Of a DNA stretch of 64,000 nucleotides, positions 29,906 to 46,043 are shown piece by piece; positions within the stretch are counted from its first letter, which is position 1, and each line of letters begins with the position of its first letter. The position numbers and the translations under genes were made by a program. A model generated the notes under the pieces. The model saw nothing but the letters and a program-made list of their open reading frames with translations, searched no databases and was not told the origin of the DNA. Source of the stretch: Novibacillus thermophilus (GTDB taxonomy: Bacteria; Bacillota; Bacilli; Thermoactinomycetales; Novibacillaceae); NCBI RefSeq assembly GCF_002005165.1, contig NZ_CP019699.1, forward strand, positions 2,418,001 through 2,482,000, read 5' to 3'.

Positions 29906-29998
29906 TCTCCTCATAAAGTGAGCCTGTGTCTAGTCGTCGAAGGGCGTTCCTTCGTATATTATAAGAATGAGAATGTGCAGAAAAAGGAGGTCGCAGTA

Positions 29999-30481
29999 GT
30001 GCGCAGGCGAGACACGGGCACGCTCTACTTTGCGTACGGTTCGTGTATGGACGATGTGCGGCTGCGGGAGCACGGGGTGAACCATTTGTTTCAAGATGTC
30101 GTCGGCCGAGGCGTGTTGCGCGGATACCGACTGGCATTCACGCGCCAAACAGGAGATTGCGCGTACGCCGACATCGTCCCCGACCCGAGAAGCATCGTGG
30201 AGGGAAAAGTGTACCGGCTGACGTCAGAAGCGGTTGATTACTTGGACGAGCGGGAAGGACGGGGGAAAGCGTACGACCGCGTCTGGTTGGAGGTAGACGT
30301 GAACGGAACACAGATGCCATCTGTACTGTCGTACACTGTGGTACAGAAAAGCGAGGCAGAGCTGCCTCCTCCGAAATGGTACGCTTTAGAAATTTTGCGC
30401 GGTGCCGAAGGCACAGTCAGTGCCCGCTACCTAGAGGCTTTACAGAAGAAGTTCCGGCAGGAGTTTAAGTTGGATGTCTAA
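29999..30481 (+). CDS. Gamma-glutamylcyclotransferase-like (AIG2/GGCT) protein
   Basis: A 160-residue GGCT-fold protein. LYFAYGSCMDDVRLREHG is the substrate loop (YGS) and VDYLDEREGRGKAYDRVW contains the expected catalytic Glu. GTG 29999 follows AAAGGAGG by 8 bases. GGCT enzymes cyclise gamma-glutamyl or related amides, releasing 5-oxoproline-type products. It lies 93 bases after yhfW on the same strand, so it may belong functionally to the yhf cluster, though E. coli yhf lacks it. Confidence 0.8.
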   Translation: MRRRDTGTLYFAYGSCMDDVRLREHGVNHLFQDVVGRGVLRGYRLAFTRQTGDCAYADIVPDPRSIVEGKVYRLTSEAVDYLDEREGRGKAYDRVWLEVDVNGTQMPSVLSYTVVQKSEAELPPPKWYALEILRGAEGTVSARYLEALQKKFRQEFKLDV

Positions 30482-30522
30482 TCTGGCCCTTGAACCCTCT
30501 CGATGGTCGAAGTGATTCGCTA

Positions 30523-30551
30523 AGCTGCGATGAACGATCGCGGCTTTTTTA
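30523..30551 (+). terminator. Rho-independent terminator after the GGCT-like gene
   Basis: AGCTGCGAT (30523-30531) pairs with ATCGCGGCT (30537-30545) over 9 positions including one G-T pair, with a 5-base loop. A T6 run follows at once. It closes the yhf/GGCT transcription unit before the nitroreductase gene. Confidence 0.8.
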
Positions 30552-30605
30552 TTTGCCTTTTGCCCGAGAAATTTGGTACAGTCGTGAGTACGAAGGAGGT
30601 TACGT

Positions 30606-31226
30606 ATGGACGTACGCGATACGATTGAACAGCGGCGGGCTGTGAAGCGCTATGACCCGACGCGTGAAATCAGTGAAGACCGTATCCGGGAGTTGTTCCG
30701 CCTCGCTTCCTTGGCGCCGTCCGCCTGGAATTTACAGCACTGGCACTTCATCGTCGTCAGGAGCGCCGAACAGAAGGAACGGTTGCGCAAGGCAGCCAAC
30801 AACCAGCCGAAAGTGACAGAAGCATCTTTGACCGTCGTCGTCTGCGGCAATTTAGACGCTTATCGAGACGCAGACCGCATCTACGACTCGTTCGTGAGAA
30901 ACGGGTATTTGTCAGAGGAACAAAAGCGACGAAAAATTATCGGCATCGAACAGTTTTACGCTGATCCGCAAAACCGGCGCGACGAAGCGATCCGCAACGC
31001 TTCCCTGGCGGCCCAGACATTGATCCTGGCCGCCACAGAGATGGGCTACGCCACGTGCCCGATGATCGGATTCGACCCAGACGCGGTTCGCGAGGTGGTC
31101 GAGCTCCCCGACCACCTCCTTCCAGTCATGCTGATCACAGTCGGATTCGGTGAGGAAACGCGCCCTCGCAACGACCGCAAACCGTTTGAAGAAATTGTCG
31201 ACTTTGATGTATTCGGGCGTTCGTGA
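30606..31226 (+). CDS. Nitroreductase family flavoprotein
   Basis: A 206-residue nitroreductase-fold protein, expected to bind FMN and reduce nitro compounds or quinones with NAD(P)H. Motifs are TIEQRRAVKRYDP (FMN phosphate contact) near the N-terminus, LASLAPSAWNLQHWHFIVV, and LAATEMGYATCPMIGFDP. ATG 30606 follows AAGGAGG. It stands alone between a terminator and the insertion element. The 160 bases after it (31227-31386) contain no gene but hold the 14-bp palindrome TCGGAATATTCCGA at 31347-31360. Confidence 0.88.
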   Translation: MDVRDTIEQRRAVKRYDPTREISEDRIRELFRLASLAPSAWNLQHWHFIVVRSAEQKERLRKAANNQPKVTEASLTVVVCGNLDAYRDADRIYDSFVRNGYLSEEQKRRKIIGIEQFYADPQNRRDEAIRNASLAAQTLILAATEMGYATCPMIGFDPDAVREVVELPDHLLPVMLITVGFGEETRPRNDRKPFEEIVDFDVFGRS

Positions 31227-31386
31227 CACGCCAAACCACCTCCCTCTTGAAATAAATAATTTTCTTTAACATGCTCGTTCATTCTCAAATTTTCATAGGA
31301 ACTTATTTCGAAGCTTTTTCATGGCTTTTACCAGAAAGTCCTCTTTTCGGAATATTCCGATAGAGTGAAGAGTAATGCCCTAAAAC

Positions 31387-33036
31387 TCCTGTAATGGAAT
31401 TTTCAAAATTATTTATGATCGCGCATCTCTTCTCCACTCAGCTCATGGTCGCTTACCCTCCCATGGCTCACGGGATTTTCTCCTCACATTCCTTCGTCCG
31501 GCATATCCATGAGGTGGAGGCCGACTTTGCTCCTTTACGGGGTCTGGGCCCTGATGGTGAAAATATGGTTCGGCTCTGCGCTTCGATTGTGTTCCCACCG
31601 TCCTTGAGTGTCAAACGAAAGGTTGCCTACTCCCTAACTTTTTCTTTTAAGCTGCTTCCTGTATGGAAAACTGAGGCATGTCTCGCAGCATTTTCTCGCC
31701 GTCAAACCGGTATCGTTTCTTGGCCATTGCAAAAAACACGCGGATGAGTTTACAACTCAGGGCAATGAGCGATTCTTGTTTCTTAAGCGGGTGTTCTTGC
31801 CGCGTTGTATAGTATTCGTGCAAGGCTTTAAAGGCCGCATTATGCACAACGAGCGGACGAACCACGAGATATAAGGCTTTGCGCAGTCGCCTGCGTCCAC
31901 GCTTGGTGATGTGGGTCTGACCTTTGCATTTCCCCGATTGGTGTACGGTTAAGCTCAGCCCGGCAAGGCGTTGAATCTGGCGTGGATGTTCATAGTGGGC
32001 GATGTCTCCAACCTCGCCGAAAAAGGTGGCCACGGTCAAAACGTTAACGCCCTTCATGGCGATCATCTCTTCAGTTCCTGGAATCACTTTGACCAGCTGC
32101 TCCATCTCTTCATCGATGCTTGCGATGCTTTCTTGAAGATGCTCGTATTGTTTGAGCAAACTTTGCAGGGCACGTTTGGCCATCCGCGTTCCGACGGTTA
32201 ATCCGATGGAACGCTCAGCTGCTTGCCGCAGTGTATGGGCCCGTTTGATTCCGATGCCTCGCTGGGCGACCTGTTTCCACTCCCTCACCAGGTCTTCTGC
32301 CGATATGGCAGTGACCTCTGCCGGCAATGGGAAATGGCTCAGGGTGTACCAAGCGGCTTTGCCATCCCAATCTTTAAACACTCTCCGGAATTCCGGAAAA
32401 TAACGATCGAGCCAGTTGTCAATCCGACCGGTGATGATCTGCAAATCTTTCGACAGCTGATCGCGAATTTTAAGGCCTTCCCGCAGTTCGGCATATACAC
32501 CCTCTTGCAGGTTCGGTACGGCGTATCGGCCGTCTGTGATCAATTGGGCGATGACGTGGGCGTCTTTTGTATCTGTTTTAGATGGCGAATTGTCATCGAG
32601 CTCCTTCGCTTTTTTCACATGCATCGGATTGACGACGACAAACGGGATTTCTTTCGCCTTGGCGAAATAGGCGAGATTGAACCAATAGTGTCCGGTCGGT
32701 TCACAACCGAGGATCACATGTGTTTTTTCATATGCCTGTTGCTTCTCGGACACCCAAGCTAATAATCGCTCAAAGCCCGTTATGTTGTTTTCAAAAACCA
32801 ATCGCTTACCAAACTCATACCCTCGGTCATCGACTGCTCGGGCGACGTGCTTTTCTTTCGCAATGTCAATCCCTACAACTAATGTCTCCGGTGTGATTTG
32901 CTTCAATTTCTTATTCCGGTTATAATTCACTTCGAATCCTCCTTGGGTTTTGAATTTAGGAGTCGATGTCATCGACATCCCGTACTATACCAAGGAGGCT
33001 CTTTTTTGTTAAACCTCAATTTTCTTCATTACAGGA
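31387..33036 (-). mobile_element. IS110/IS1111-type insertion sequence
   Basis: Contains one DEDD transposase on the minus strand. A 10-bp inverted pair, TCCTGTAATG (31387-31396) and CATTACAGGA (33027-33036), brackets it and probably marks subterminal repeats; true ends may lie some bases further out. The non-coding part is about 260 bases on the 3' side of the transposase and about 100 on the 5' side. IS1111-group elements carry subterminal repeats and a guide (bridge/seek) RNA in the 3' side, so that side is the candidate RNA region. A 15-bp hairpin (GTCGATG-T-CATCGAC, 32962-32976) lies upstream of the transposase. Confidence 0.75.
31647..32930 (-). CDS. IS110-family DEDD transposase
   Basis: A 427-residue recombinase. 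The RuvC-like DEDD domain shows VVGIDIAKEKHVA (Asp22), ILGCEPTGHYW (Glu) and TDTKDAHVIAQLI (two Asp). The C-terminal Transposase_20 domain shows IPGTEEMIAMKGVNVLTVATFFGEVGDI and LAGLSLTVHQSGKCKG with the conserved serine region. GTG 32930 is preferred because AAGGAGGA lies 5-6 bases upstream; the longer form from 32978 lacks such a site. The gene is intact, so the element may be active. Confidence 0.93.
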   Translation of the reverse strand: MNYNRNKKLKQITPETLVVGIDIAKEKHVARAVDDRGYEFGKRLVFENNITGFERLLAWVSEKQQAYEKTHVILGCEPTGHYWFNLAYFAKAKEIPFVVVNPMHVKKAKELDDNSPSKTDTKDAHVIAQLITDGRYAVPNLQEGVYAELREGLKIRDQLSKDLQIITGRIDNWLDRYFPEFRRVFKDWDGKAAWYTLSHFPLPAEVTAISAEDLVREWKQVAQRGIGIKRAHTLRQAAERSIGLTVGTRMAKRALQSLLKQYEHLQESIASIDEEMEQLVKVIPGTEEMIAMKGVNVLTVATFFGEVGDIAHYEHPRQIQRLAGLSLTVHQSGKCKGQTHITKRGRRRLRKALYLVVRPLVVHNAAFKALHEYYTTRQEHPLKKQESLIALSCKLIRVFFAMAKKRYRFDGEKMLRDMPQFSIQEAA

Positions 33037-33108
33037 ATGCTCCTTTAGGTTCTTGCCTAAGGAGGTAATTGTATTTAATGGACAAGTGTTGTGTCGGTGT
33101 ACGTACTG

Positions 33109-33160
33109 TTGAATATCTTAAACAACTTCTATATAATAAGCCTAACTATCATTAGTTAGG
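33109..33160 (+). promoter_or_regulatory. Promoter with perfect palindromic TetR operator
   Basis: -35 TTGAAT (33109-33114), 17 bases, -10 TATAAT (33132-33137). Just downstream, CCTAACTA (33141-33148), TCAT, TAGTTAGG (33153-33160) is a perfect 8-bp inverted repeat covering the likely transcription start. The layout is classic for TetR autoregulation. Confidence 0.75.
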
Positions 33161-33168
33161 TGATCGCG

Positions 33169-33750
33169 GTGACCCGGCAGAACATCAAACAAGCCGCTCT
33201 GAACCTGTTAGCCGCACACGGGTATGAGAAGACAACTCTCTCAGCTATCGCCAAAGAGGTCGGCATCAAAGCGCCGTCCATTTATTCATTCTTTGAGAGT
33301 AAAGAAGCGTTGTTCGTGGAAATTTACCGCGACTTGCTGGACGAGCACTTCATGCAGCTCAAGCAGCTCATAACCAGTAATGAAGGAAAGGCTCCGGAGA
33401 AACGTTTGAAACACCTTTTAAAAGGCATTTTGTCATACCATGTGCACCATCCGAAAGAATCTCGTGTCCTGTTGCAGTTGTTGTTGTTCCCGCCAGAGTT
33501 TATGCAGGACGAAATCGAGCGCCTCTTTATAGAAAAAGAAGAGATGCAGCGCAAACTGTTGATGGAGATTTTTACGGATGCCATGAATGAAAACGTCGTC
33601 CGAAAACAGGCGATGGACGATTTAATCGCTTCTTTCTTTTGCTTGATGGATGGTCTGTTTTTGGAGTTGTTTTACTACGGAGAAGATGTGCTCATGGGGA
33701 AATTGGAACAAATATGGCAGGTCTACTGGACAGGCTTAACCACGTCTTAA
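33169..33750 (+). CDS. TetR-family transcriptional repressor
   Basis: A 193-residue regulator. The HTH is ALNLLAAHGYEKTTLSAIAKEVGIKAPSIYSFFESKEALF; the C-terminal ligand domain is helical. GTG 33169 follows AGGTGA; GTG 33160 is possible but would overlap the operator. It lies 30 bases upstream of an NCS1 permease gene followed by DUF917 and hydantoinase genes. It probably represses this operon until a cyclic amide-like substrate is present; the ligand is unknown. Confidence 0.85.
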   Translation: MTRQNIKQAALNLLAAHGYEKTTLSAIAKEVGIKAPSIYSFFESKEALFVEIYRDLLDEHFMQLKQLITSNEGKAPEKRLKHLLKGILSYHVHHPKESRVLLQLLLFPPEFMQDEIERLFIEKEEMQRKLLMEIFTDAMNENVVRKQAMDDLIASFFCLMDGLFLELFYYGEDVLMGKLEQIWQVYWTGLTTS

Positions 33751-33780
33751 CATACAACACGAAAAGGCAGGGATACACGT

Positions 33781-35075
33781 ATGCAAGATCTGAAGATAGA
33801 AGATTTCGAACGGCGTCCTGTTCCGCCGTCCGTTCGAAAGAGTTGGTGGTCTATCAGTTTGGTTTGGATTGCGATCGGGATTGATTTGTCAGCGATGCTG
33901 CTCGGTGCAGAGTTAGGTGGAGGAATGGACTTTCAATCCGCTTTGTTAGCGGTTTTTGTCGGCTCTCTCTTTTTGGGTGTACTGGCTTCTTTTTGTGCTT
34001 ACATCGGTGCAGCGACGGGGCTGTCGACTTCCATGATTTCCCGCTTTGCTTTCGGGGAATACGGAGCGCGAATCGTCTCCGTCATCATAGGGGTTTCTCT
34101 ACTTGGTTGGTTTGGGGTTCAAGCAGGCTTTTTTGCTGAAAATGCCTATGCGGCTGTTGAGCATTTATTTGGCGTGTCGGTTTCCACAAAATGGCTCGCC
34201 TTGTTTGGTGGATTACTGATGATGACCACTGCCATATACGGGTACCGTGCCATTGAGCGGCTGAGTGTCTACTCGGTTCCATTCCTTGTCGCCTTGATTT
34301 TGCTTGCGATGAGCCTGGCGTTTTATCAACAAGGGTCAGGGGCATTGTTTGAAGCTACCGACAACACCTTTAGTTTTGGAGCGGCCACATCATTAGTCAT
34401 CGGGATCTTTGTATTGGGTGCCATGATCTCACCGGACGTATCTCGATGGGCGAAAAGTCGAAAAGACGCCGTCTTGGCGGCATTTTTCGGATTTTTTGTC
34501 GGGAATAGCTTCATGCTGATCATGGCGATCATCTTGTCGAAAGTGCTTCACACAGATGATTTAACCTACGTCTTTTTCGCAGTAGGTTTGGTATTCCCGC
34601 ACTTTTGGTTCTCACCTTGGCTCAATGGACGACCAATACGAACAACTTGTACTCGTCGTCCCTCGGTTTTTCCGTTGTCTTTCGGCGCACATCGAAAGTT
34701 GTCATCACAATCGTAGCGGGTTTGGTCGCAACCATGCTTGCAGTTTTCGGCATTTACGATCGGTTTATTACTTTTTTGTCGATCATGACGATGTTTATCG
34801 CCCCGGTTGGTGGGATTTACACCGCTGAATATTACCTCATCAACAAAAAGCGCTTCTCCTTTGAAAATGAACACATTGTCAAACTGAATGTCTGTGCGGT
34901 GATCGCGTGGGTGGTCAGCACCTTTATCAGTTATATGACGACGGATGCGCCAGATGGTTTGGCCTTGTTTACGCTCACGAGCGTGCCTGCACTCGACGGC
35001 TTTCTTTCGGCATTTGCAATCCAAACGCTTTTAAGCCTTTTGATTCGGAACGAAAAGTGGAAGGTGGTTAAATGA
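33781..35075 (+). pseudogene. NCS1-family cytosine/hydantoin-type permease, one frameshift
   Basis: A membrane transporter of the NCS1 (CodB/PurR-permease-like) family, about 12 membrane segments over 431 residues. Typical parts are WWSISLVWIAIGIDLSAMLLGAELGGG and FVLGAMISPDVSRWAKSRKDA. The frame breaks at GG 34590-34591: one added G restores GLGIPALLVLTLAQWTTNTNNLY, the conserved CodB-like segment. Both halves are otherwise intact, so sequence error is plausible. It overlaps the DUF917 gene by 4 bases. Substrate probably a hydantoin, pyrimidine or related cyclic compound, judged by neighbours. Confidence 0.82.
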
Positions 35076-36166
35076 AGCAGCTAAACGAACAGGCTATCGA
35101 AGATATTGCCATGGGTGCGGCAGTGCTCGGCACCGGTGGAGGAGGAGACCCTTTCATCGGTAAAATGATGGCCCTGGAGGCGGTGAAAAAGTACGGGCCC
35201 GTTTCGGTCGTCACGGTGGACGAATTGGAGGATCAGGCCCAGGTAGTGCCCGTGTGCATGATCGGGGCGCCGACCGTCATGGCTGAAAAAATCCCGTCTA
35301 TGGAACAAGTAACCGCGGCAATCGAATGTTTAGAACAGGAAAAAGGGCAAGCGGTCGATGCGGTCATGCCGATTGAGATCGGCGGAGTCAATTCGCTCAT
35401 CCCCATCGTTGCGGCTGCCAAAAAAGGCATCCCGGTTCTCGATGCCGACGCCATGGGACGCGCTTTCCCAGAGTCCCAGATGGTGACGTTTCATTTAGAA
35501 GGGTATTTGCCTGGTTCGGTGACTCTAGCGGATGAGAAAGGAAATGTGACCTTGCTTCGACCGATTGACGGTGCCTGGTCGGAGCGGTTGGCACGGGCGA
35601 TCACCGTGGAAATGGGAGGGTCGGCTTCGATGTGCGATTACTGGCTTTCCGGCGCAGACGTGAAGCGGGCCGTCATCCCTGGCACTTTACACACTGTCGA
35701 AAAGATCGGGCGAATCATACGGGAAGCGCACGGGAAAATGGAGAATCCGGTACGGAACATATTGAGAGAACTGCAAGGTTATGAATTGTTTACAGGAAAG
35801 GTGGTCCACATTGAGCGGAGCATTGACGGCGGATTTACCCGCGGGAAAGCCGCCATCGAAGGAACAGATCGCGATCGGTCCAAAGTGATGAACCTCTACT
35901 TTCAAAACGAACACTTGCTGGCCGAGGAAGACGGGAAATTGCGCGCGGTGCCCCCTGATTTGATCGCCGTGTTGGATGAAGAGACAGGTTATCCGGTGAC
36001 GACGGAAAACATCCGATATGGAGCCCGTGTAACGGTCGTCGCCTTTCCTGCCCATCTGAAATGGCGCACTGAAGTCGGGTTAGAAACGGCCGGCCCCCGG
36101 TATTTCGGTTACGATTGCGACTACATTCCGGTAGAAAAACTGTGTAAAGGAGGGAAAGCCGAGTGA
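35072..36166 (+). CDS. DUF917 (S-Me-THD family) protein
   Basis: A 364-residue DUF917 protein. Hallmarks are IAMGAAVLGTGGGGDPFIGKMMALEA, VMPIEIGGVNSLIPIVAAAKKGIPVLDADAMGRAFPE and PDLIAVLDEETGYPV. The family was renamed after an S-methyl thiohydantoin desulfurase and usually sits beside hydantoinase/oxoprolinase genes. It overlaps both neighbours by 4 bases (ATGA and GTGA), so all three are translated as a coupled unit. A cytoplasmic role in cyclic-amide breakdown is inferred. Confidence 0.88.
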   Translation: MKQLNEQAIEDIAMGAAVLGTGGGGDPFIGKMMALEAVKKYGPVSVVTVDELEDQAQVVPVCMIGAPTVMAEKIPSMEQVTAAIECLEQEKGQAVDAVMPIEIGGVNSLIPIVAAAKKGIPVLDADAMGRAFPESQMVTFHLEGYLPGSVTLADEKGNVTLLRPIDGAWSERLARAITVEMGGSASMCDYWLSGADVKRAVIPGTLHTVEKIGRIIREAHGKMENPVRNILRELQGYELFTGKVVHIERSIDGGFTRGKAAIEGTDRDRSKVMNLYFQNEHLLAEEDGKLRAVPPDLIAVLDEETGYPVTTENIRYGARVTVVAFPAHLKWRTEVGLETAGPRYFGYDCDYIPVEKLCKGGKAE

Positions 36167-37714
36167 CGTATCGACTGGGGATAGATGTCGGTGGCACGAA
36201 TACAGATGCGGTGATTTTGGATGAATCACGACAGGTCGTGGCCAAAGTAAAACAACCCACGACAAGCGATGTGATGACGGGAATTTATCGAGCCATCGAG
36301 AAGTTGTTAGCACAAGCGCCCGTCGATCGCGGATCGATTCGCTATGCGATGCTCGGGACCACTCAGTGTACGAATGCGATCGTGGAAAGAAAGCAGCTCA
36401 ATCGAGTGGGAATCATTCGCATCGGTGCCCAGGCGACGACGGCTGTTCCTCCGCTGGCCGGTTGGGATGATACGTTGCGGCAAGTGATTGGTGAGCACAT
36501 TCATGTTCTCTCAGGCGGCTACGAATACAGTGGAAAGACGATCGCTCCCTTTGATGAAGAAGGTTTAAAACAAGCAGTTCGCGAGATGAGAGGAAAAGTC
36601 CAATCGATCGCGGTGATTGGCGTTTTTTCTCCTGTCCGCGTGGAACAAGAGCGTCAAGCCGCACAAATCATTCGGGAGATAGCACCAGAGATGCACGTCT
36701 CCCTCTCTCATGAAATTGGATCAATCGGCCTCGTCGAAAGGGAAAATGCAACGATCCTAAATGCAGCCTTAATGAATGTGATTCAAGGGGTTGTGGACGG
36801 TTTTAACGGAGCGTTGCAAAAACATCGCATTGGGGCTGAACTGTATTTAGGACAAAATGACGGAACGTTGATGTCCAGTCAATATGCGCTTCAGTACCCG
36901 ATCTTTACCATTGCGTGCGGTCCAACGAATTCCATCCGAGGCGCCATGCATCTGTCGGGTTTGAAGGATGCGATCATCGTGGACATCGGAGGGACGACGA
37001 CAGATGTCGGTGTGGTACAAAAAGGATTTCCGCGCCAATCGGCGCTAGCAGTAGACGTCGGAGGGGTGAGGACGAACTTCAGAATGCCGGACATACTGTC
37101 CATCGGTTTGGGGGGAGGGACCGTGATCCATGAAAAAGGGAGTGAGTTGACGATCGGTCCAGAGAGTGTCGGCTATTTGCTGCCGGAAAGAGGGCAAGCC
37201 TTTGGCGGTCCCGTCTTAACGGCCACGGACGTGGCGATCTGCCTCGGCCTCGCCGATATACCTGGAACAGATCCAACACGTGTACGCCTATCACCTGCCT
37301 ATGCTCAGCGCGCCCATCGACGCATGGTCGAAAAAGTGGCCGACGCCATTGACCGGATGAAGACGAGTCCCGATGCAGTCCCCGTTGTGTTGGTCGGTGG
37401 GGGAGCGTCCTGATGCCGGAGCAGCTGCCTGGGGCATCAGAAGTCATTCGCCCCCGCATTCCGATTCGGCCAATGCCATCGGTGCCGCCTTAGGGGATAT
37501 TAGCGGCGATGTGGAAAAAGTGTACTCCCTCTCTGAGATGTCTTATGACGAAGCCCTCGCCGACGCCAAGCAGACAGCAATCCGAGAAGCGGTTCACGCT
37601 GGGGCCGATCCCGATACGGTTCAGATCATGACTATCGAAGACGTGCCGCTCGCGTACATGCCGGGGAATGCGACGCTGATCAAAGTCAAAGCGGCTGGCG
37701 AGATTAAAAAGTAA
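36163..37714 (+). pseudogene. Hydantoinase/oxoprolinase (HyuA) family enzyme, two frameshifts
   Basis: An ATP-dependent hydantoinase/5-oxoprolinase-type subunit of about 517 residues, with ASKHA-like motifs YRLGIDVGGTNTDAVI, MLGTTQCTNAI and IIVDIGGTTTDVGV. The frame breaks twice near the C-terminus: at CC 37409-37410 and at the C5 run 37451-37455. Adding one C at each gives GGGASLMPEQLPGASEVIRPPHSDSANAIG read through, matching the family's conserved segment. Between the breaks a third frame is used for only 40 bases. Everything else is intact. Last gene of the TetR-regulated operon. Confidence 0.83.
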
Positions 37715-37746
37715 ACAACGTCACACCATTCAGGAATTGAATCCAC

Positions 37747-37795
37747 AAGTGCACCCGCCCTTGCATAAGACGTAAAGCAAGGGGGTGCACTTTTT
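37747..37795 (+). terminator. Strong rho-independent terminator
   Basis: AAGTGCACCC (37747-37756) pairs with GGGTGCACTT (37783-37792); the stem continues inward with CCCTTGC/GCAAGGG. A T5 run overlaps its end. It closes the TetR-permease-DUF917-hydantoinase operon. Confidence 0.9.
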
Positions 37796-37857
37796 CATGT
37801 CGGCCGTTTGGGTGGAACGCAAACAGACGTTTCATGACCATACGGCGTCAAAAGGTT

Positions 37858-37866
37858 TGCTATAAT
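37858..37866 (+). promoter_or_regulatory. Promoter (extended -10) for addBA
   Basis: TGCTATAAT is a consensus extended -10 (TGN plus TATAAT, 37861-37866), 89 bases before the addB start. No good -35 hexamer is seen at 16-18 bases upstream. Confidence 0.5.
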
Positions 37867-37954
37867 AAGTGTAAGCTCATGATCGGCGAACAGTAGTGGG
37901 TAATGAACCACCATATTGAATAGATTGACGGGAGAGACAGGGGAGGTACTTGTA

Positions 37955-40900
37955 GTGAAGCGGTTGTATACGGGGCCGTTCTCTGCCCGGCTGCGGCACG
38001 TATGGGTGGAGCGGGCGCGTAAGATGCCGACGGAGCAGTGGCTGTGGATACTGCCGACGCGGCATTTGCTCCAGACGGTGCGCGAGATGCTGTTGGAAGG
38101 CCGCGGCGGGCTGGTGGACGTGCCGCTCTTGACGTTTGACGACATCGCCGCGCGCCTGGTGAAACACGTCCACAGGCGGACGCTGTTTCTCAATCCGTAC
38201 GCGCGGGAAAAACTGGTGGAGAAGCTGCTGGAACGTCACGCCGATGATCCCCGCCTGTACGTGTTCCAGCCGATTCTCGATCAACCGGGCCTGGCCCGAT
38301 CCCTTGCCCACGCCATCGGGGAGATGAAGCGGTCAGGGTTGACGGAACAAGCCGTGGCCTCGTACTTACAGCGGGATCGGTCGGATCAACCGTCCGCCAG
38401 GCGGCAGCAAGCCCTCGCTTTTTTGTTTTTGCGTTACCAAGAGGCATTACACTTAGGAGACGGAAACCGTACTGGTGTCGATCCAGAGGAATTGCTGCTC
38501 AAGGCGTGCCACATTCTCGAAGGACGTCACACCCTCGATCACTCACTGGTTGACCGGTTGTCGTTTACCGATATACATACGTTGTGGGTGGACCATTTTA
38601 CCGATTTTACGCCGCTACAAATGCGGCTGTTGCGCTCCCTCGTCAAAGCGTCTGCCGAAGTCGGCATTTACATCCCGTTTCCCTGGGAGAAAGGGGGGCA
38701 ACTGCCACAACTGACGGCACAGTTGCACGAGACGGTGCGCGCTCTGGAACAGTGGGGGCTGGAGCGTGTAGAGCTCTCCGGGCGTTCGCAGACGGCAGCG
38801 CGGGAACAGTTGGAGAGGGACTGGCTCTCTGGCGCATCGACTGCACCGCTCGCTCCTCCCCACCTGTTGGAACGAAGCGGGGTGACAGACGGAAACGAGG
38901 AAGGGACTGCCTGTGCGCCGGAGGGGTTGGAATGTTTGCCCGCCTGCACACGGAAGCGGGAAATCGAGACGGTTGCCAAAGAGATCAAACGCATCGTTCG
39001 CGCAGAAGGCATCGCCCCAAGCGATATTGTCATCGTCGTCAAAGACGAAAGCTATAAACCGCTCATCCACGATGTCATGCAGCGAGACGGGGTGCCCCTG
39101 TACGACCATGAACAGGTCGGTTTGCACGAAACGGCCATGGCGCGGCAGCTCGTGTCGCTGCTGCGCCTTGCCGTATCCGATTGGGAACGGCGCGATCTGA
39201 TCTGCCTGGCTGAGGGAGGGTACTTACGCTGGCAACACCGTCCGCCCTACGGGTTGGAGACGTGGGTGAAAAAAGTCGGCATCGACAAAGGCCGGACGAA
39301 CTGGCAAAACGCCTGCAAGCGGGAGTTGGGCCGCCTGGAATGGCTAGAACAGGAAGCGCAAGGTGCCGATTGGGAGCCGGCGGAGCGGGAGAGGCGGCTA
39401 AAGCAACTGGCACGACAGAGACAGAACGTACAGCGCATCCTCGCCTGGTTCGACGAATTACAGCAGATTGAGGAGGCGTGGGCATCGGCCGCATCGTGGT
39501 CCGCATTTGTCAAAGCTGTTGAACGGATGTGGGACGAGCTGGATGTGGAAGGGTGCGTCAAGCGCGTGTGGAGTCGTCATTTAAAACGGGGAGAGGTAAA
39601 CGGGTATCGCCGCGATTGGGACGCGTATCGCACCCTTTGTGATACGTTGCAAGAAATGAAAGAGATGGAAGGGCTCATCCCGGAGAGCAGCCGCACGTCC
39701 CGCGACGCGTTCGTGCGGGAATTGAGCGCTCTCCTGTCCCGAAAACGGGTCACTGTCACCTTCGGTCACACCGGGGGCGTACGCCTCATGGACCCGTCAG
39801 GCGTAAGAGGGGCCAGTTTCGACACGGTGTTCATCATCGGACTGAATGAAGGCAGTTTTCCGGTCCACCATGCTGAAGACTGGCTCATCCGCGATGCAGA
39901 ACGGGTGGCGTTTCACGGAGGACAAGCCCGTTTGCCGGCCAGTTACGCCCACAACGAGATGGAACAGCTGTTTTTTGAGATGGCGGTCTGCACGGCGCGG
40001 CGACGCTTAATTCTCTCCTACGTTTCACCTGAAGGGAATGAGGAAATGTTGCGTTCGCGTTTTTTGGATCAGTTGGAACGCCAGTACGCCACAGGCCCCT
40101 GGCTGTCCCCACCCCGGTTCAAAGAAGCGATGGAGAGCCGTTTGTACGCCGAAGAGGCGAGGGATGTGACTTCTCCCCAAGAGTACCGGCACTGGTTTAT
40201 GGCCAAATGGGCGGAAGGGGGAGAGGCGTTTCAGCAATCGCTCGTCCAAACGGACGATCCCGTCTACAGGGAAGAGCGGCCAGCTCTCTGTCAGCTGGTG
40301 GAGCGCGCGGAGATTGAGCAGGAACGTTACCGGCCGACTTACGGGCGATGGGATGGCCATTTGCTCGACCCCCGCATTCACGCCCGGCTCCGTCAGGAGT
40401 TTTCTCCGGACCGCACCTACAGCGTGTCGCAGCTCAACGATTACGCCGCGTGTCCGCTGCACTTTTTCTTCTCCCGCGTTCTCGGCGTCGAACCACTGGA
40501 AGAGACGGAACAGACGTTGTCTCCCCTCGATGCCGGAAACGTGCTGCACGAAGTATTGCGTCGTCTGTTGGCTTCCCGCTTGGATCGGCACATGTGTGAT
40601 GTCCCCTTAGAAGAGTGGCAGGCGACCCTTCGTTCCGTGTTCCAGGAGGTGACAGCAACGTGGGAGCACGAACAGGCCCACGCGTTGCCGCCCCTGTGGC
40701 CGTTGGAAAAGAAGCGGTTGTCCCGGATGCTGGAGCAGTGGTTGCAACACGAATACAAAAGACAGGGACGACGGCGCTTTAAGCCGCGTCACGTAGAGTT
40801 TTCGTTCGGACTTCCCCGCGGCAGGGAGGGCGTCGACAGGCATTCGAGCGAACACCCGATTTCCCTGTCCTTAAGGGGCGAGACGCTCCGGTTGGTGGGG

Positions 40901-41347
40901 CGGATTGATCGCATCGATCACGACGAAGACGGGCACTTCGTGCTGTACGACTACAAACTGTCGACGATGCGTTACGAAGGGTGCCAGAACGTGGAGGAGA
41001 CGACGAACTTCCAACTGCCGTTGTACGTGCTCGCCTACCGTCGCTGGCTGGAAGAACAAGGGCGTCCGGGAAAGCCCGTTGGCGCCGGTTTTTACGGACT
41101 GCGCGCCCAAGACAAGTACAAAAAAATCGGCATCTGGGAGGAGGCGTCGCTCACCGACCTCGGGTTAGGCAAGTTGCGGTCGGGGGTAGCTGACGACGTC
41201 GTGCAAGTGGCAGAGACAGCCTTGGAACGGGTGGCCGACTTGTTGGACGGCATCCGCCACGGCCGGTTTTACATGCTGCCGGAACACGAACCGAACCCGT
41301 ATTACGGCGATGAGGCCCTGTACCGCCATCAAGGGATAAAGCGTTAA
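37955..41347 (+). CDS. addB: AddB-type helicase-nuclease subunit, degenerate N-terminal site
   Basis: A 1130-residue subunit of the AddAB recombination helicase-nuclease. GTG 37955 follows GGGGAGGT by 8 bases. The C-terminal PD-(D/E)XK nuclease motif is intact (LVGRIDRIDHDEDG, FVLYDYKLST). Two usual AddB features are missing. The N-terminal Walker A (GRSGSGKT in B. subtilis) is replaced by YTGPFSARL. The three C-terminal cysteines of the 4Fe-4S cluster are absent, the end reading EPNPYYGDEALYRHQGIKR; only the DYAACPLHFFF cysteine remains. Upstream in-frame sequence does not restore Walker A. A clade-specific variant is likely. Confidence 0.88.
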   Translation: MKRLYTGPFSARLRHVWVERARKMPTEQWLWILPTRHLLQTVREMLLEGRGGLVDVPLLTFDDIAARLVKHVHRRTLFLNPYAREKLVEKLLERHADDPRLYVFQPILDQPGLARSLAHAIGEMKRSGLTEQAVASYLQRDRSDQPSARRQQALAFLFLRYQEALHLGDGNRTGVDPEELLLKACHILEGRHTLDHSLVDRLSFTDIHTLWVDHFTDFTPLQMRLLRSLVKASAEVGIYIPFPWEKGGQLPQLTAQLHETVRALEQWGLERVELSGRSQTAAREQLERDWLSGASTAPLAPPHLLERSGVTDGNEEGTACAPEGLECLPACTRKREIETVAKEIKRIVRAEGIAPSDIVIVVKDESYKPLIHDVMQRDGVPLYDHEQVGLHETAMARQLVSLLRLAVSDWERRDLICLAEGGYLRWQHRPPYGLETWVKKVGIDKGRTNWQNACKRELGRLEWLEQEAQGADWEPAERERRLKQLARQRQNVQRILAWFDELQQIEEAWASAASWSAFVKAVERMWDELDVEGCVKRVWSRHLKRGEVNGYRRDWDAYRTLCDTLQEMKEMEGLIPESSRTSRDAFVRELSALLSRKRVTVTFGHTGGVRLMDPSGVRGASFDTVFIIGLNEGSFPVHHAEDWLIRDAERVAFHGGQARLPASYAHNEMEQLFFEMAVCTARRRLILSYVSPEGNEEMLRSRFLDQLERQYATGPWLSPPRFKEAMESRLYAEEARDVTSPQEYRHWFMAKWAEGGEAFQQSLVQTDDPVYREERPALCQLVERAEIEQERYRPTYGRWDGHLLDPRIHARLRQEFSPDRTYSVSQLNDYAACPLHFFFSRVLGVEPLEETEQTLSPLDAGNVLHEVLRRLLASRLDRHMCDVPLEEWQATLRSVFQEVTATWEHEQAHALPPLWPLEKKRLSRMLEQWLQHEYKRQGRRRFKPRHVEFSFGLPRGREGVDRHSSEHPISLSLRGETLRLVGRIDRIDHDEDGHFVLYDYKLSTMRYEGCQNVEETTNFQLPLYVLAYRRWLEEQGRPGKPVGAGFYGLRAQDKYKKIGIWEEASLTDLGLGKLRSGVADDVVQVAETALERVADLLDGIRHGRFYMLPEHEPNPYYGDEALYRHQGIKR

Positions 41348-41362
41348 CCGGCTGGTTACCTG

Positions 41363-41619
41363 ACTGGCAATTGTGTGAGCAAGCGATGGTGCACGGGTCC
41401 ACCGTGGATAAGAAAAACGTGTAGGCGTCATTCGCAGCGGGAGAGAGATGTCTTAAGGCCATGGAAGACTGCATCCTTGAATGGACGAGATCCTTATCGA
41501 AACGGCAGCGTGGAGATCCGCTTCAAAGGCCGTGCCCTCGAACGGCCACCTTTTTTTGGAATGGCCTCAAGACACCTCCTCTCCGCGCCCGGTCACACCA
41601 TGTTCATACGATTGCCAGT
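41363..41619. repeat. Nested palindromic element between addB and addA
   Basis: The 318-base gap holds no gene but two nested inverted repeats. The outer arms contain ACTGGCAAT (41363-41371)/ATTGCCAGT (41611-41619) and ATGGTG (41386-41391)/CACCAT (41596-41601). The inner arms, 41445-41460 and 41563-41578, match at 14 of 16 positions and extend imperfectly to about 41436 and 41588. The whole resembles a small non-autonomous palindromic element or a large folded RNA. Confidence 0.6.
41528..41557 (+). terminator. Terminator-like hairpin inside the addB-addA gap
   Basis: GGCCGT (41528-41533) and ACGGCC (41542-41547) form a 6-bp stem with an 8-base loop, followed by ACC and a T7 run (41551-41557). 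It would reduce transcription into addA unless antiterminated. It lies within the nested palindromic element. Confidence 0.6.
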
Positions 41620-41665
41620 GCCGTCACAACATTAACGTCTGTCTTTCTGAAAGGGGTGGAACGAA

Positions 41666-44600
41666 GTGAATGGGAGTGTCCCCATACGTCACATCACACG
41701 CGATCCCGCTCCACAGCCGGGACAACAGCGGGCGATTGAACTGATCGACCGCGATGTCATCGTCTCGGCCGGTGCCGGGTCGGGCAAGACGTGGGTGTTG
41801 ACCGAACGGTATATCGAAATGCTCAACTACGGAACCCGGCCGGAGCAAATCGCCGCCATCACCTTCACGAAAAAAGCGGCGGCAGAAATGAAAGGGCGCA
41901 TTCGCCAGGCGATTGCCAAGATGGAGGAAACGTCGGCAAGTTCAGAGGAGGCGGCTTATTGGAACCGGTGCAAACAAGAGTTGGAGCGGGCGGTCATTAC
42001 GACGATTCACGGCTTTTGCACCCGACTGCTGAAGGACGCCCCGCTGGAAGCGGGCGTAGACCCCGCGTTTCACGTCTTAGACGAGAAAGAGGCCGTCCTG
42101 TTGGAACGGGAGGTGTTCACAGAAGCCGTCGACACGTGGCTCCAGGAGTCAGGGGCTCGCGCCGAACGCGTGTACCGGGAACTGGGTGACCGCCGCACCG
42201 TCATTCGGAACATTTTGGCCTTGCACCACCACATGCGCACTTATCACGTGCGGGAAGAGGACATTTTAAGCGAAACGTTTGCCACGCTGGACGAGCGGAA
42301 GGAACGGTTTCACGCCATAAGGGAAGAACTGCTGCAACTGGCGGATGACGCTCTGGCATGTGTGGAGGAACTTCTCGACGAGCGCGAGCATCCGCCCAAC
42401 TATCTAACCGATGCCCATGCCTGGCTGACCAATCTCGTCTCCGCCATCAACCGGACGGCCGGCTGGGACGGAACGTATGAGCGGGAGACGGCCGACGTCT
42501 TCGTTTCACTGAAAGGGAACATGTGGCGGAACACGGGGCCGGACCACCTGAAGGCGCTGCACGGACAGTTAAAGGAAAAGGTGGCGGAGTGGCTGCTCTA
42601 CACTGAAGCGCCTGCATACCGGGAACTGTTGCGCGACATCGTCAGCTTGACCACCAGCGCGGCAGAAAAGTACCGGGAAGCGAAGCGCCGCAAACAAGGG
42701 CTGGACTTCCACGATCTGGAGCAGGTGACGACGGACATGCTCTCCCGCCATCCGGAAGTGGCGGAGCGGTGGCGGCAGACGCTGCATTACGTCATGGTGG
42801 ACGAGTTCCAAGATACGAACAGTCTGCAAAAGGACATCCTCGACAGGCTCATCGGCAGTGACGGGCGAGTGAAGCAGTTCGTCGTCGGTGACGGGAAACA
42901 GTCCATCTACCAATTCCGCGGCGCCGACGTGGCCGTCTTCAACCGGACCGATGCCGACATACGGCAGAGCGGGGGAGCCGCCGTTTCCCTCGACGTCAAC
43001 TTTCGCACCCAGCACCGGCTCATCCACTACATCAATTCCCTGTTCGCCTTCCTCATGCAAAAAGAAGAAGGGGACCCTGACTACGCTGTTGCTTACGAAC
43101 CGCTCGTCGCCCACCGCAAGCCTCCACACGACCGTCCGGCAGTAGAATTGCTGGCGACGGCGATTCCGAAGGACAGTGACGACGATGCGCGGCAGATGGA
43201 GGCTGAGCGGGTGGCACGGCGCATCCGACTGATGGTTGAGGGAAAAGAGCCCCTCGTGTGGGAGGCACGAGGCGGGGAAGAGAAGCCGCGGCCAGTGGAA
43301 TACCGGGATATCGCCCTCCTTTTGGCGACGCGGACGCACTTGGACGTGTACGAGCAAGCGCTCCTGAACGAAGGGATTCCGTACACTGTCGTCGGCGGAC
43401 GCGGCTTTTACCGTAAACAAGAAGTGCTCGATGTGCTGAACGTGTTGAAGTTCGTGCAAAACCGGGACGATGAACTGGCCCTGTTGGGGTTTTTGCGTTC
43501 GCCGTTCGTGCACTTAAGCGATGAGACGCTGTACTGGCTGACCCGGGAACAGCGGCTGTCCCGAGCCTTTTTTTACCTCGAGACCCCGCCGAGAGAAGTG
43601 GAGCCAGTCGAGTGGGAACGGCTGCTCCAGGCGCGGGAACGCTACTTGCGTTGGGAACAGCTGAAGCAGACCGATAACGTCTACCGCCTGATGCGCTCGA
43701 TACTGGACGACAGCGGGTACATATCGGTGCTGCTGGCGCTGCCGAACGGGGAGCAGGCGGCACTCAATGTGGAGAAACTGCTGGACATCGCCCGGGAATC
43801 TGACGGACAAGGTTTGACCTTGTTCGACTTTTTGGCCCGGATGGAGACGCTGCGCGAGGAAGGGATGGAAGAGACGGAAGCCGAGTGGATTCGCGACCGG
43901 GGCAATGCGATGGTGATCATGACGGTCCACGCTTCTAAGGGTCTCGAATTTCCAGTTGTCGTGCTTCCCGACTTGTCCCGCAACGTCTTGCAAAAGGGAG
44001 CGCTGAGCCCGCGGGTGTTGTACGCCCCGGGTCACGGGCTCGCTGTGAAAACGTTCCGGGAGAGCGGGGAAGCGGAAGGGGACGGGCTGTTCGACAGCTT
44101 GAGCGAAATGGCGCGAGATCGGGAGCTGAAGGAGGCGTACCGCCTGTTTTACGTCGCCGTCACCCGGGCACGCGACTACTTGCTCCTTGCCGGTTCGCAG
44201 AAAGAGCAGAAGCGCCCGAGTGAATCGTTGAAGCACCAATGGCTGGACTGGGTCGTCAAGCATTTGGGAGCCAAACAACTGAGCGACCTTCCCCCCGGGG
44301 TTCTGTCCCTTGACACGGACTGGTCGTTAAAGGTAACGTGGGAGTTGGATGAGGCAGAAGACGAACGACGTGAAGACACCGCTGCTGATACTGTGTCCGT
44401 GAAAAAAGAGAAGGACCTTCCATGGCTTCAACGTGAGGGAGCGACCGCTTTTTACCCGTTGTACGCACCGTTAGATCTTGCACGTGATGCTAAGGGCGGT
44501 GACGTTCACTCCGTGTCGGCCTTGATGGACTACACCGAATGTCCCCGCTTATACGTTCTGAAACACTGCCTGAAAATGCCACAGCAGTCTTCTTCAGAAC

Positions 44601-45250
44601 GCAACGGAGTAGAAGCGGAACAACCGGTGAGACGTTTGACGGGGATCGAAGTCGGGAATGTCCTGCACCGCGTCATGGAGCGGGTGGAACAGGAGGTGCC
44701 CGTTGACGAGCTTATCGCCGATGCCTGCCAGAGCGAAGGGTTGGACTTCCATACAGACGACGTCGTCCAGACGATTCATGCCATGGTGGACCACTACCGC
44801 CACAGTGAGTGGTTTGCGAAAAGCAGACAAGCAAAGCGCGTGTGGAATGAATTGCCTTTCCATTACCGGATCGGCCCCCACACGGTGACGGGCGTCATTG
44901 ACAAACTGTTTGTCGATGTAAAAGGGGAGGCCACGCTTTTAGATTTTAAGACCAACTGGATTGAGGACGAAAACCATTTAGACCGTTTAGCGGCAGCGTA
45001 CACAGTCCAAGTGCAAATGTATGCCGCCGTCGTGCAAGAATTGCTCCAACTTCCGGTGAAACAAGCCATCCTCTACTTTTTACAAGGGAATCGCCCGGTG
45101 GAAGTAGAGGTCAATGCTCTGCAGTTAGAACAGAAAAAGCGGGAGTGGGAACAGGCGTTAGCTGCGATGCACCGCTTGTCTCTCGAGGGCGCATTGCCGC
45201 CTTGTACGGATGAAAGCTGCCACTGCCGCCAATACTTAAATGTTGAATAA
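41666..45250 (+). CDS. addA: AddA helicase-nuclease subunit
   Basis: A 1194-residue UvrD-type helicase with C-terminal nuclease, processing double-strand breaks for RecA with AddB. Walker A is AGAGSGKT (residues 35-42). Other helicase motifs: QIAAITFTKKAAAEMKGRI, YVMVDEFQDTN, VVGDGKQSIYQFRGAD, VMIMTVHASKGLEFPVVVLP (as VIMTVHASKGLEF) and RLFYVAVTRARDYL. The nuclease site is VTGVIDKLFVDVKG with LLDFKTNW. GTG 41666 follows AAAGGGGTGG. Unlike AddB here, all key residues are present. Confidence 0.95.
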   Translation: MNGSVPIRHITRDPAPQPGQQRAIELIDRDVIVSAGAGSGKTWVLTERYIEMLNYGTRPEQIAAITFTKKAAAEMKGRIRQAIAKMEETSASSEEAAYWNRCKQELERAVITTIHGFCTRLLKDAPLEAGVDPAFHVLDEKEAVLLEREVFTEAVDTWLQESGARAERVYRELGDRRTVIRNILALHHHMRTYHVREEDILSETFATLDERKERFHAIREELLQLADDALACVEELLDEREHPPNYLTDAHAWLTNLVSAINRTAGWDGTYERETADVFVSLKGNMWRNTGPDHLKALHGQLKEKVAEWLLYTEAPAYRELLRDIVSLTTSAAEKYREAKRRKQGLDFHDLEQVTTDMLSRHPEVAERWRQTLHYVMVDEFQDTNSLQKDILDRLIGSDGRVKQFVVGDGKQSIYQFRGADVAVFNRTDADIRQSGGAAVSLDVNFRTQHRLIHYINSLFAFLMQKEEGDPDYAVAYEPLVAHRKPPHDRPAVELLATAIPKDSDDDARQMEAERVARRIRLMVEGKEPLVWEARGGEEKPRPVEYRDIALLLATRTHLDVYEQALLNEGIPYTVVGGRGFYRKQEVLDVLNVLKFVQNRDDELALLGFLRSPFVHLSDETLYWLTREQRLSRAFFYLETPPREVEPVEWERLLQARERYLRWEQLKQTDNVYRLMRSILDDSGYISVLLALPNGEQAALNVEKLLDIARESDGQGLTLFDFLARMETLREEGMEETEAEWIRDRGNAMVIMTVHASKGLEFPVVVLPDLSRNVLQKGALSPRVLYAPGHGLAVKTFRESGEAEGDGLFDSLSEMARDRELKEAYRLFYVAVTRARDYLLLAGSQKEQKRPSESLKHQWLDWVVKHLGAKQLSDLPPGVLSLDTDWSLKVTWELDEAEDERREDTAADTVSVKKEKDLPWLQREGATAFYPLYAPLDLARDAKGGDVHSVSALMDYTECPRLYVLKHCLKMPQQSSSERNGVEAEQPVRRLTGIEVGNVLHRVMERVEQEVPVDELIADACQSEGLDFHTDDVVQTIHAMVDHYRHSEWFAKSRQAKRVWNELPFHYRIGPHTVTGVIDKLFVDVKGEATLLDFKTNWIEDENHLDRLAAAYTVQVQMYAAVVQELLQLPVKQAILYFLQGNRPVEVEVNALQLEQKKREWEQALAAMHRLSLEGALPPCTDESCHCRQYLNVE

Positions 45251-45269
45251 AATGGTGAGGTGTTTCTAG

Positions 45270-45776
45270 ATGACACAAGACGGTAATGAAAAGCAAGACA
45301 ATCCCAACGTCCCCGTCGTTGTATCGATGAATCGCAAGGAACAGCGCTTTTACGACAAGTTGCGCCGCCAGTTGCGGGACAAGTTGAACGAATACCGGGA
45401 CAAGTTGGGAGAGCGGACAGCGGACTACTTGCTTTTGCTCCCGGATTTGTTCGTCCTGTTCGTTCGCCTGGCGCGGGATAGCCGCGTTCCAAAGGAAACA
45501 AAAATCGTGGCCGGGATTACGATCGCGTACTTCATTTCGCCCATCGACCTCATTCCCGACATGATGTTCGGCCTGGGATGGCTGGATGACCTCGTGTTGG
45601 CCGTCTACGCGCTGAAGCGGGTGTTATTGGACGTGGAGCAGGAGATCGTGCTGGAGCACTGGACAGGGGATGCCGACTTGCTCGAAAAAGTGCAGGAGAT
45701 CGTAGAAAAGGCGGACAGTCTCGTCGGAAGCCGCGTCGTGAACGCCATTAAACGGACGCTGTCCAAGGAGAAGTAA
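45270..45776 (+). CDS. YkvA-like DUF1232 membrane-associated protein
   Basis: A 168-residue protein with a DUF1232 core: KETKIVAGITIAYFISPIDLIPD followed by LGWLDDLVLAVYALKRVL. The family is small and probably membrane-associated through this amphipathic or hydrophobic segment; function unknown. The charged N-terminal region may form helices. It starts 20 bases after addA with GGTGAGGTG upstream, so it probably ends the addBA transcript. Confidence 0.85.
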   Translation: MTQDGNEKQDNPNVPVVVSMNRKEQRFYDKLRRQLRDKLNEYRDKLGERTADYLLLLPDLFVLFVRLARDSRVPKETKIVAGITIAYFISPIDLIPDMMFGLGWLDDLVLAVYALKRVLLDVEQEIVLEHWTGDADLLEKVQEIVEKADSLVGSRVVNAIKRTLSKEK

Positions 45777-45795
45777 ACAGGTTGACGGGAGGCGA

Positions 45796-45833
45796 GGAAC
45801 GTACACGTCACACACGTGTGCGTTCCTTTCATT
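45796..45833 (+). terminator. Rho-independent terminator after the YkvA-like gene
   Basis: GGAACG-TACAC pairs with GTGTG-CGTTCC across a short loop (45796-45826), followed by TTTCATTTTG. It ends the addBA-ykvA-like unit. Confidence 0.75.
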
Positions 45834-45899
45834 TTGTTAGGATTTTGTAAGGAGCAGGAAATATCGAACGTGGTTAAAACGGGCTTAAAGGAGGAGCGG

Positions 45900-46043
45900 A
45901 TGAGGCCCCAAAAAGGTGAATGGCAGAATCCGATGAATGGGAAGACCTTTTTGTCGTTCGTGATGGCGGAAAACTTTAAGGTTCACCATCATTGCGATGC
46001 GAAGATCATTTCAGCAATTCTCTTGCAAAACAGTGGGCAATAG
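45900..46043 (+). CDS. Possible small protein, 47 residues
   Basis: ATG 45900 follows a strong AAAGGAGGAG site and opens 47 codons (starting MRPQKGEWQNPMNGKTFLS). It is unrecognised, and its end overlaps the convergent SGNH hydrolase gene by 38 bases. Only the ribosome site supports it. Confidence 0.35.
   Translation: MRPQKGEWQNPMNGKTFLSFVMAENFKVHHHCDAKIISAILLQNSGQ

Follow-up and report, generated by a model that had tools for sequence, protein, structure and literature searches.

The window, a 64,000-nucleotide stretch of the Novibacillus thermophilus genome (contig NZ_CP019699.1, positions 2,418,001 to 2,482,000; G000:C1:2418001-2482000 in our numbering, the host genome being one contig of 3,629,225 bases), carries an addB-addA pair in which both nuclease domains depart from the iron-staple pattern, i.e. 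one N-side cysteine followed by a C-terminal triad C-x2/3-C-x5-C. In AddB, the triad is replaced by a cysteine-free, aromatic-rich segment. In AddA, four cysteines are present, but the last three are spaced C-x4-C-x-C. The two changes coincide strictly in our survey, in the same five of 145 AddAB pairs, which form one clade and have intact nuclease and motor motifs. With a probability of roughly 0.6, they define a working AddAB sub-type in which a metal-free clasp would stand in for the AddB staple and the sole, putative metal site would lie in AddA, with an inverted ligand spacing. On the genomes sampled so far, the paired change is confined to five distantly related bacteria.

37955 to 41347, plus strand: addB, GTG start, 1130 amino acids, helicase-like N-terminal half and PD-(D/E)XK nuclease.
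41666 to 45250, plus strand: addA, GTG start, 1194 amino acids, superfamily 1 (SF1) helicase with Walker A AGAGSGKT and PD-(D/E)XK nuclease.

The addB frame is open over 1130 codons, from the GTG at 37955 to the stop at 41347; the longest open reading frame (ORF) over it begins at a TTG at 37916 and adds 13 residues. AddB matches the Pfam families PF21445 (ADDB_N, 57.6 bits for a cut-off of 26.6) and PF12705 (PDDEXK_1, 120.3 bits for a cut-off of 22), and addA adjoins its gene on the same strand, as required of an AddB. AddA exhibits the SF1 motor and the PD-(D/E)XK nuclease expected of its family (PF00580, 206.2 bits; PF13361, 109.3 bits; PF12705, 62.3 bits). Both subunits are considered divergent because they score far under the NCBIfam equivalog cut-offs: 159.1 bits against 903.7 for AddB with TIGR02773, its best NCBIfam model, and 436.7 against 707.65 for AddA with TIGR02785. 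The window AddB is hence described as a divergent AddB-type subunit. A RexB identity is ruled out (TIGR02774, 33.7 bits for a cut-off of 718.35). By sequence, the nearest solved structures are those of B. subtilis AddB and AddA, in PDB entry 3U44 and its sister entries.

37967 to 37981, plus strand: YTGPF, AddB residues 5-9, invariant in the five members, at the protein start, where 42 of the 145 AddBs surveyed have a P-loop.
40451 to 40453, plus strand: AddB C833, the one iron-staple ligand left in this subunit; three of the five members have Ser here.
40898 to 40957, plus strand: AddB nuclease motifs GRIDRID...LYDYK.
41291 to 41326, plus strand: AddB residues 1113-1124, PNPYYGDEALYR, replacing the cysteine triad, with ligand positions P1113, Y1117 and Y1123.

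The original prediction described an AddB lacking both the Walker A motif and the C-terminal three-cysteine cluster while retaining its nuclease residues, and each of these observations is borne out. Residues 5-13 read YTGPFSARL in place of the P-loop, and GRIDRID and YDYK are retained, as is QLPLY. The loss of the cluster calls for one qualification: the first of the four staple cysteines, C833 of YAACP, remains, so that one of the four is left. C833 is shared with G001 and is a serine in G063, G170 and G074. Alignment with relatives, the check that had been proposed, places the window segment EPNPYYGDEALYR gap-free against ECDPYCPYLDVCR of locus L032, from the sister clade. Across the five members, the three triad cysteines of that clade align to Pro (four) or Glu (one), to Tyr in all five, and to Tyr (four) or Phe (one). 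The whole segment follows the motif [PE]-x-x-[YF]-Y-[AG]-[DN]-x-A-[LIV]-[YF]-R, with Y1117, A1121 and R1124 invariant, Tyr in four members and Phe in one at both 1116 and 1123, Ala or Gly at 1118, Asp or Asn at 1119, and Leu, Ile or Val at 1122. Among 173 AddBs, the motif occurs in the five members only; one of them (L179, genome G063) has a single cysteine in its 1150 residues. The G001 AddB, 54% identical to that of the window, is in the same condition. These alignments support the view that the window AddB must keep its nuclease domain together without the four-cysteine 4Fe-4S site. To this extent, the proposal that the subunit must be built differently stands.

The Walker A loss is not peculiar to this AddB. 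No classical N-terminal Walker A is found in the window AddB, but none is found either in any of the 27 AddBs from the other families (f2-f6) of the order Thermoactinomycetales, one of which (L058) is a 326-residue fragment whose N-terminus is unseen. As the pattern, a P-loop within the first 70 residues, is also missing from 103 of the 145 pairs surveyed (present in 42), bearing in mind that a wrong start codon can hide it, the Walker A does not define the AddB family. AddA is expected to be the only subunit using ATP. Chi recognition has been placed in an AddB domain devoid of most or all helicase motifs, according to the available portions of PMC4824097 and PMC4027173. Staple loss in AddB also has precedents among RexB-like proteins, and the subunit is best considered together with AddA, which holds a conserved, re-spaced four-cysteine set.

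44540 to 44542, plus strand: AddA C959, first of the four-cysteine set, invariant in the five members.
44942 to 44950, plus strand: AddA nuclease motif DFK, residues 1093-1095.
45203 to 45226, plus strand: AddA C1180-x4-C1185-x-C1187 (CTDESCHC), the re-spaced C-terminal cysteines, identified from the five-member alignment and the survey.

The window AddA thus possesses the four cysteines of an iron staple without its canonical spacing. The C-terminal ends of the five AddAs read CTDESCHC, CTDDRCYC, CHHVACPC, CSNLSCIC and CGQSGCVC, and C-x4-C-x-C within the last 60 residues is found in these five alone among 154 AddAs. The five-member alignment (36-56% identity to the window) has 267 invariant columns. 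Five of these are cysteines (C118, C959, C1180, C1185 and C1187), and beyond residue 1139 the last three are the only invariant residues. No description of cysteines of this kind in AddA was found among the best-ranked open-licence papers.

The distribution of these states was established on a chosen sample of loci. A class survey gave matches in 396 of 398 genomes drawn; every hit scoring above about 355 bits was retrieved, apart from that of G119 (family f19, fragmented, with an internal stop), together with chosen weaker hits, and 40 regions were fetched afterwards (one locus, L067, was fetched and not used). The survey and these regions yielded three of the members described below, L179, L184 and L192. 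Seven copies were removed before counting: L099 (AddB triad, no AddA triad), L102 (AddB triad, fragmentary AddA) and L100, L101, L105, L110 and L170 (both triads). For 29 of 174 loci, one subunit was missing or short, leaving 145 pairs, whose states were called by simple patterns and may be wrong in single cases (the AddA of L124 counts as a triad on CEGCREPGEC). Triads are found in both subunits in 59 pairs (58 without AddB Walker A) and in AddB only in 73, of whose AddBs 41 have a Walker A and 32 do not. Eight pairs have no triad in either subunit: the RexB-like L244, L245, L246 and L250, and L159, L165, L172 and L176 from Actinobacteria. The remaining five combine an AddB without triad with an AddA bearing C-x4-C-x-C. 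They are the window and L031 (G001) from family f1, L179 (G063) from f28, and L184 (G170) and L192 (G074) from f32. All five AddBs start with YTGPF, and the AddB replacement and the AddA set of C959 and C-x4-C-x-C occur in exactly these five. The 42 classical pairs, whose AddB has a Walker A, come from Bacilli, Clostridia and a few Planctomycetota; all have the AddB triad, and in 41 of them AddA has none.

Since all 27 order relatives bear triads in both subunits (AddB: 26 C-x3-C-x5-C and one C-x2-C-x5-C; AddA: C-x2-C-x5-C throughout, one with an extra cysteine inside), the background state of the order, as read from these patterns, is a triad in both nuclease domains. The window breaks this pattern as well as the classical one. 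A wider search of the phylum (398 genomes drawn, E-values up to 1e-60) gave 14 further AddBs and no further member, 13 having the triad and the last (L223) being cut by a contig end. Nor was the five-member type seen among the 80 of 325 loci listed in a scan of named genomes, many of which have no AddA within reach.

Two other groups show distinct features. The four actinobacterial loci have AddB-like proteins without a full triad (L165 and L172 keep two C-terminal cysteines) and AddA-like partners without the four cysteines, which amounts to another staple loss. In family f5, the short pairs L054, L056 and L059 (G037, G039 and G036; AddB of 1015-1030 residues, AddA of 1082-1088) have triads in both subunits, L054 forming a very long branch in each of the subunit trees. 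Twelve of the 42 order genomes, all from f5, give only PcrA-like helicase matches and no AddA (one, 68% complete, gives no match).

Descent was analyzed with quick trees of 72 AddA and 71 AddB hand-chosen rows, from which the trait-bearing last 45 or 60 residues were removed; support comes from the Shimodaira-Hasegawa-like approximate likelihood ratio test (SH-aLRT) only, and the AddB tree carries a warning, as long branches joined elsewhere. In each tree, a single branch separates the five members from all other rows, with an SH-aLRT of 99 for AddA and 96 for AddB. Their sister is a group of three f19 loci (99 in both trees), all with triads in both subunits, and the next branches out are f25, f26, f38 and f39. 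Because f19, f26 (4/4) and f39 (7/7) have both triads, an ancestor with two clusters is likely but not certain, since f25 and f38 differ.

Neither tree places the window with the other families of its order. Joining the window and G001 to their order is rejected by the approximately unbiased (AU) test (p-AU 9.2e-6 for AddA and 5.3e-5 for AddB; 36 rows each, under the models used, with order membership taken from genome kinship codes), which eliminates vertical inheritance of this AddAB within the order. Based on these two results, the operon probably reached family f1 from another order, displacing the native one. No second AddA was found in either f1 genome, the other matches being shorter UvrD-type frames of 649-800 residues. 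The mixed composition of f32, with the five-member type in two of four genomes and another type in the other two, also points to transfer. A plasmid source was rejected: a tblastn search against plasmids gave 29 records, all below 60% identity, the best-ranked row being at 23.4%.

In the proposed mechanism, AddA would be the ATP-driven motor and the 3'-strand nuclease, and AddB a scanner without its own ATP site and the 5'-strand nuclease, the strands being assigned by analogy with B. subtilis AddAB. The AddB iron staple would have been dismantled in one ancestor, a cysteine-free, aromatic-rich C-terminal clasp (PNxYYADxALYR-like) taking its place, closing the nuclease domain and perhaps replacing the staple mechanically. 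AddA would have kept its four-cysteine site with a changed spacing of the C-terminal ligands, from C-x2-C-x5-C (short, long) to C-x4-C-x-C (long, short). The four cysteines would form one metal site, most likely with a Fe-S cluster as cofactor, stapling the AddA nuclease domain. The enzyme most likely resects DNA ends as other AddABs do. With four conserved cysteines still present in AddA, albeit at a new spacing, the complex has probably retained a metal site in some form.

AlphaFold models of both nuclease domains, built from alignments without the other four members, have a confident core (mean predicted local distance difference test score, pLDDT, of 84.3 for AddA and 82.5 for AddB). Structural matches of both include nucleases of AddAB, AdnA and the Cas4 family; DNA2 and nuclease 3L0A are further matches of the AddA domain. 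In VIA-align comparisons, whose ranges give the first and last aligned residues only, the alignment extends to the very end of the AddA domain for AdnA (Z 17.2), ACE1, 3L0A, Cas4, AddB and DNA2, but stops at residue 218 (of 265) for B. subtilis AddA. Such a stop is expected if the tail of the window AddA forms a staple-like element with no counterpart in the B. subtilis subunit.

Several points weigh against the proposed sub-type. Only five members have been found, and f25 (L035) and f38 (L195), with one locus each, have the AddB triad and no AddA triad. The AddA tail harboring C1180-C1187 is modelled with moderate confidence (block means of 81, 69 and 53 over residues 241-265, the last two for 251-260 and 261-265). 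The AddB replacement tail has a pLDDT below 50 (model residues 307-326), and the putative clasp has no structural support yet. Finally, zinc occupies the equivalent site of the related nuclease 3L0A, according to the available part of PMC3466216.

This last point opens the alternative that survives best: the AddA set would bind zinc, and the whole enzyme would have moved off Fe-S chemistry, in AddB by substitution and in AddA by ligand re-spacing. The AddA spacing does depart from the iron-staple pattern, whose four cysteines are called strictly conserved in the accessible text of PMC7430649, and 3L0A is itself among the AddA fold matches. However, the same portion of PMC3466216 cautions that zinc seen in structures of this type may be artefactual, and the canonical-type AddA triads of the sister clade, f26 and f39 make Fe-S the likelier ancestral state. 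A zinc enzyme is thus doubtful, and Fe-S is favored because the close relatives have canonical spacing. A complex without any cofactor, as RexAB-like enzymes seem to be, with the AddA cysteines as a non-binding relic, would find a parallel in the four RexB-like AddBs and their AddA partners, all without triads. It is improbable: a relic is expected to erode, as AddB C833 did in three of five members, yet the four AddA cysteines are invariant at 36-56% identity, when no other residue past 1139 is. That a frameshift, wrong start or assembly error conceals the motifs, as the frame-shifted appearance of the neighbouring hydantoinase A and permease genes might suggest, is scarcely credible, given an AddB open across 1130 codons, the same AddB state in four other genomes, and six frames over 37600-38300 and 40900-41750 that hold no P-loop pattern and no staple spacing (four C..C..C strings are present, all outside the AddB frame).

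The sub-type with a putative AddB clasp and a putative, re-spaced AddA metal site remains the preferred reading. A broader scenario is more tentative, at somewhat less than even odds: an AddAB lineage would have gone from two iron staples to one, with a metal-free aromatic clasp in AddB and, in AddA, a cluster whose inverted ligand spacing would be a new layout for the RecB/Cas4/DNA2 nuclease fold, and the operon would then have spread between distant Bacilli.

41348 to 41665, plus strand: addB-addA gap of 318 bp, with inverted repeats at 41363-41381 and 41601-41619.

The other four members have overlapping addB and addA ORFs, and the gap is possibly a small insertion resembling a miniature inverted-repeat transposable element (MITE) that split an overlapping gene pair. 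Its repeats are 19 nucleotides each and 219 nucleotides apart, and a second copy of 192 bp, 75% identical, lies elsewhere in the genome. An Rfam scan of 37400-46000 at gathering thresholds gave no match. Upstream of addB, the ORF of a hydantoinase/oxoprolinase A gene (36163-37713) ends at 37413, and by eye a similar reading continues in other frames to about 37713, indicating a frameshifted pseudogene or an assembly error. A permease-like gene (33781-35075) likewise appears split across the overlapping frames 33781-34716 and 34605-35075, by a frameshift or an assembly error. In G001, the homologue of gene 29918-30481 is directly upstream of addB; at this place, the window carries about 7.5 kb extra (30482-37954), with, by eye, TetR-type regulator, permease and hydantoinase-type genes.

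The AddB cluster was reportedly the subject of a study by Yeeles et al. in 2009. Further literature on the topic is found in PMC5704561, PMC5030088 and PMC1193525, of which the available portions were used. A site lost from AddB and altered in AddA is a natural experiment on the role of the cluster, which may be purely structural or sheddable subunit by subunit. The enzyme also demonstrates that a four-cysteine set can reside in AddA, where 59 of the 145 pairs have a triad by pattern.

Among known systems, Walker A loss is ordinary and AddB cysteine loss has precedents; the AddA partner is the part that the original prediction missed. The best solved relatives, B. subtilis AddAB (3U44, 3U4Q and 4CEI), share the AddA motor and nuclease and the AddB helicase-like half and nuclease. 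B. subtilis AddB has the iron staple (NACPFSHF, CTYCAFKSVC) and its AddA no cysteine tail, whereas the window AddB has lost the triad and its partner contains four cysteines. The dual-motif AddABs of other Thermoactinomycetales families (Kroppenstedtia, Lihuaxuella, Paludifilum, Melghirimyces, Paenactinomyces) and of f19 share an AddB without Walker A and cysteines in the AddA nuclease domain but, unlike the window, keep triads in both subunits (27/27 order relatives, 3/3 f19 loci). In four of the loci read, the RexAB-like enzymes (TIGR02774) share an AddB-like subunit without Walker A or staple cysteines, and their AddA partners, unlike the window AddA, do not have the four-cysteine set. The hits of the L244-L246 genomes pass the RexB cut-off and that of L250 does not; L241 and L242 are not RexB-like, and L239 was not read properly. 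Three other RexAB-like loci, below the RexB cut-off, keep the AddB triad. Like the iron-staple nucleases Cas4, DNA2 and Bad, the window AddA combines a PD-(D/E)XK domain with a single cysteine on the N-side and three at the C-terminus; the members described in the accessible literature have a conserved cysteine pattern, whereas the window AddA spaces its C-terminal cysteines by four residues, then by one.

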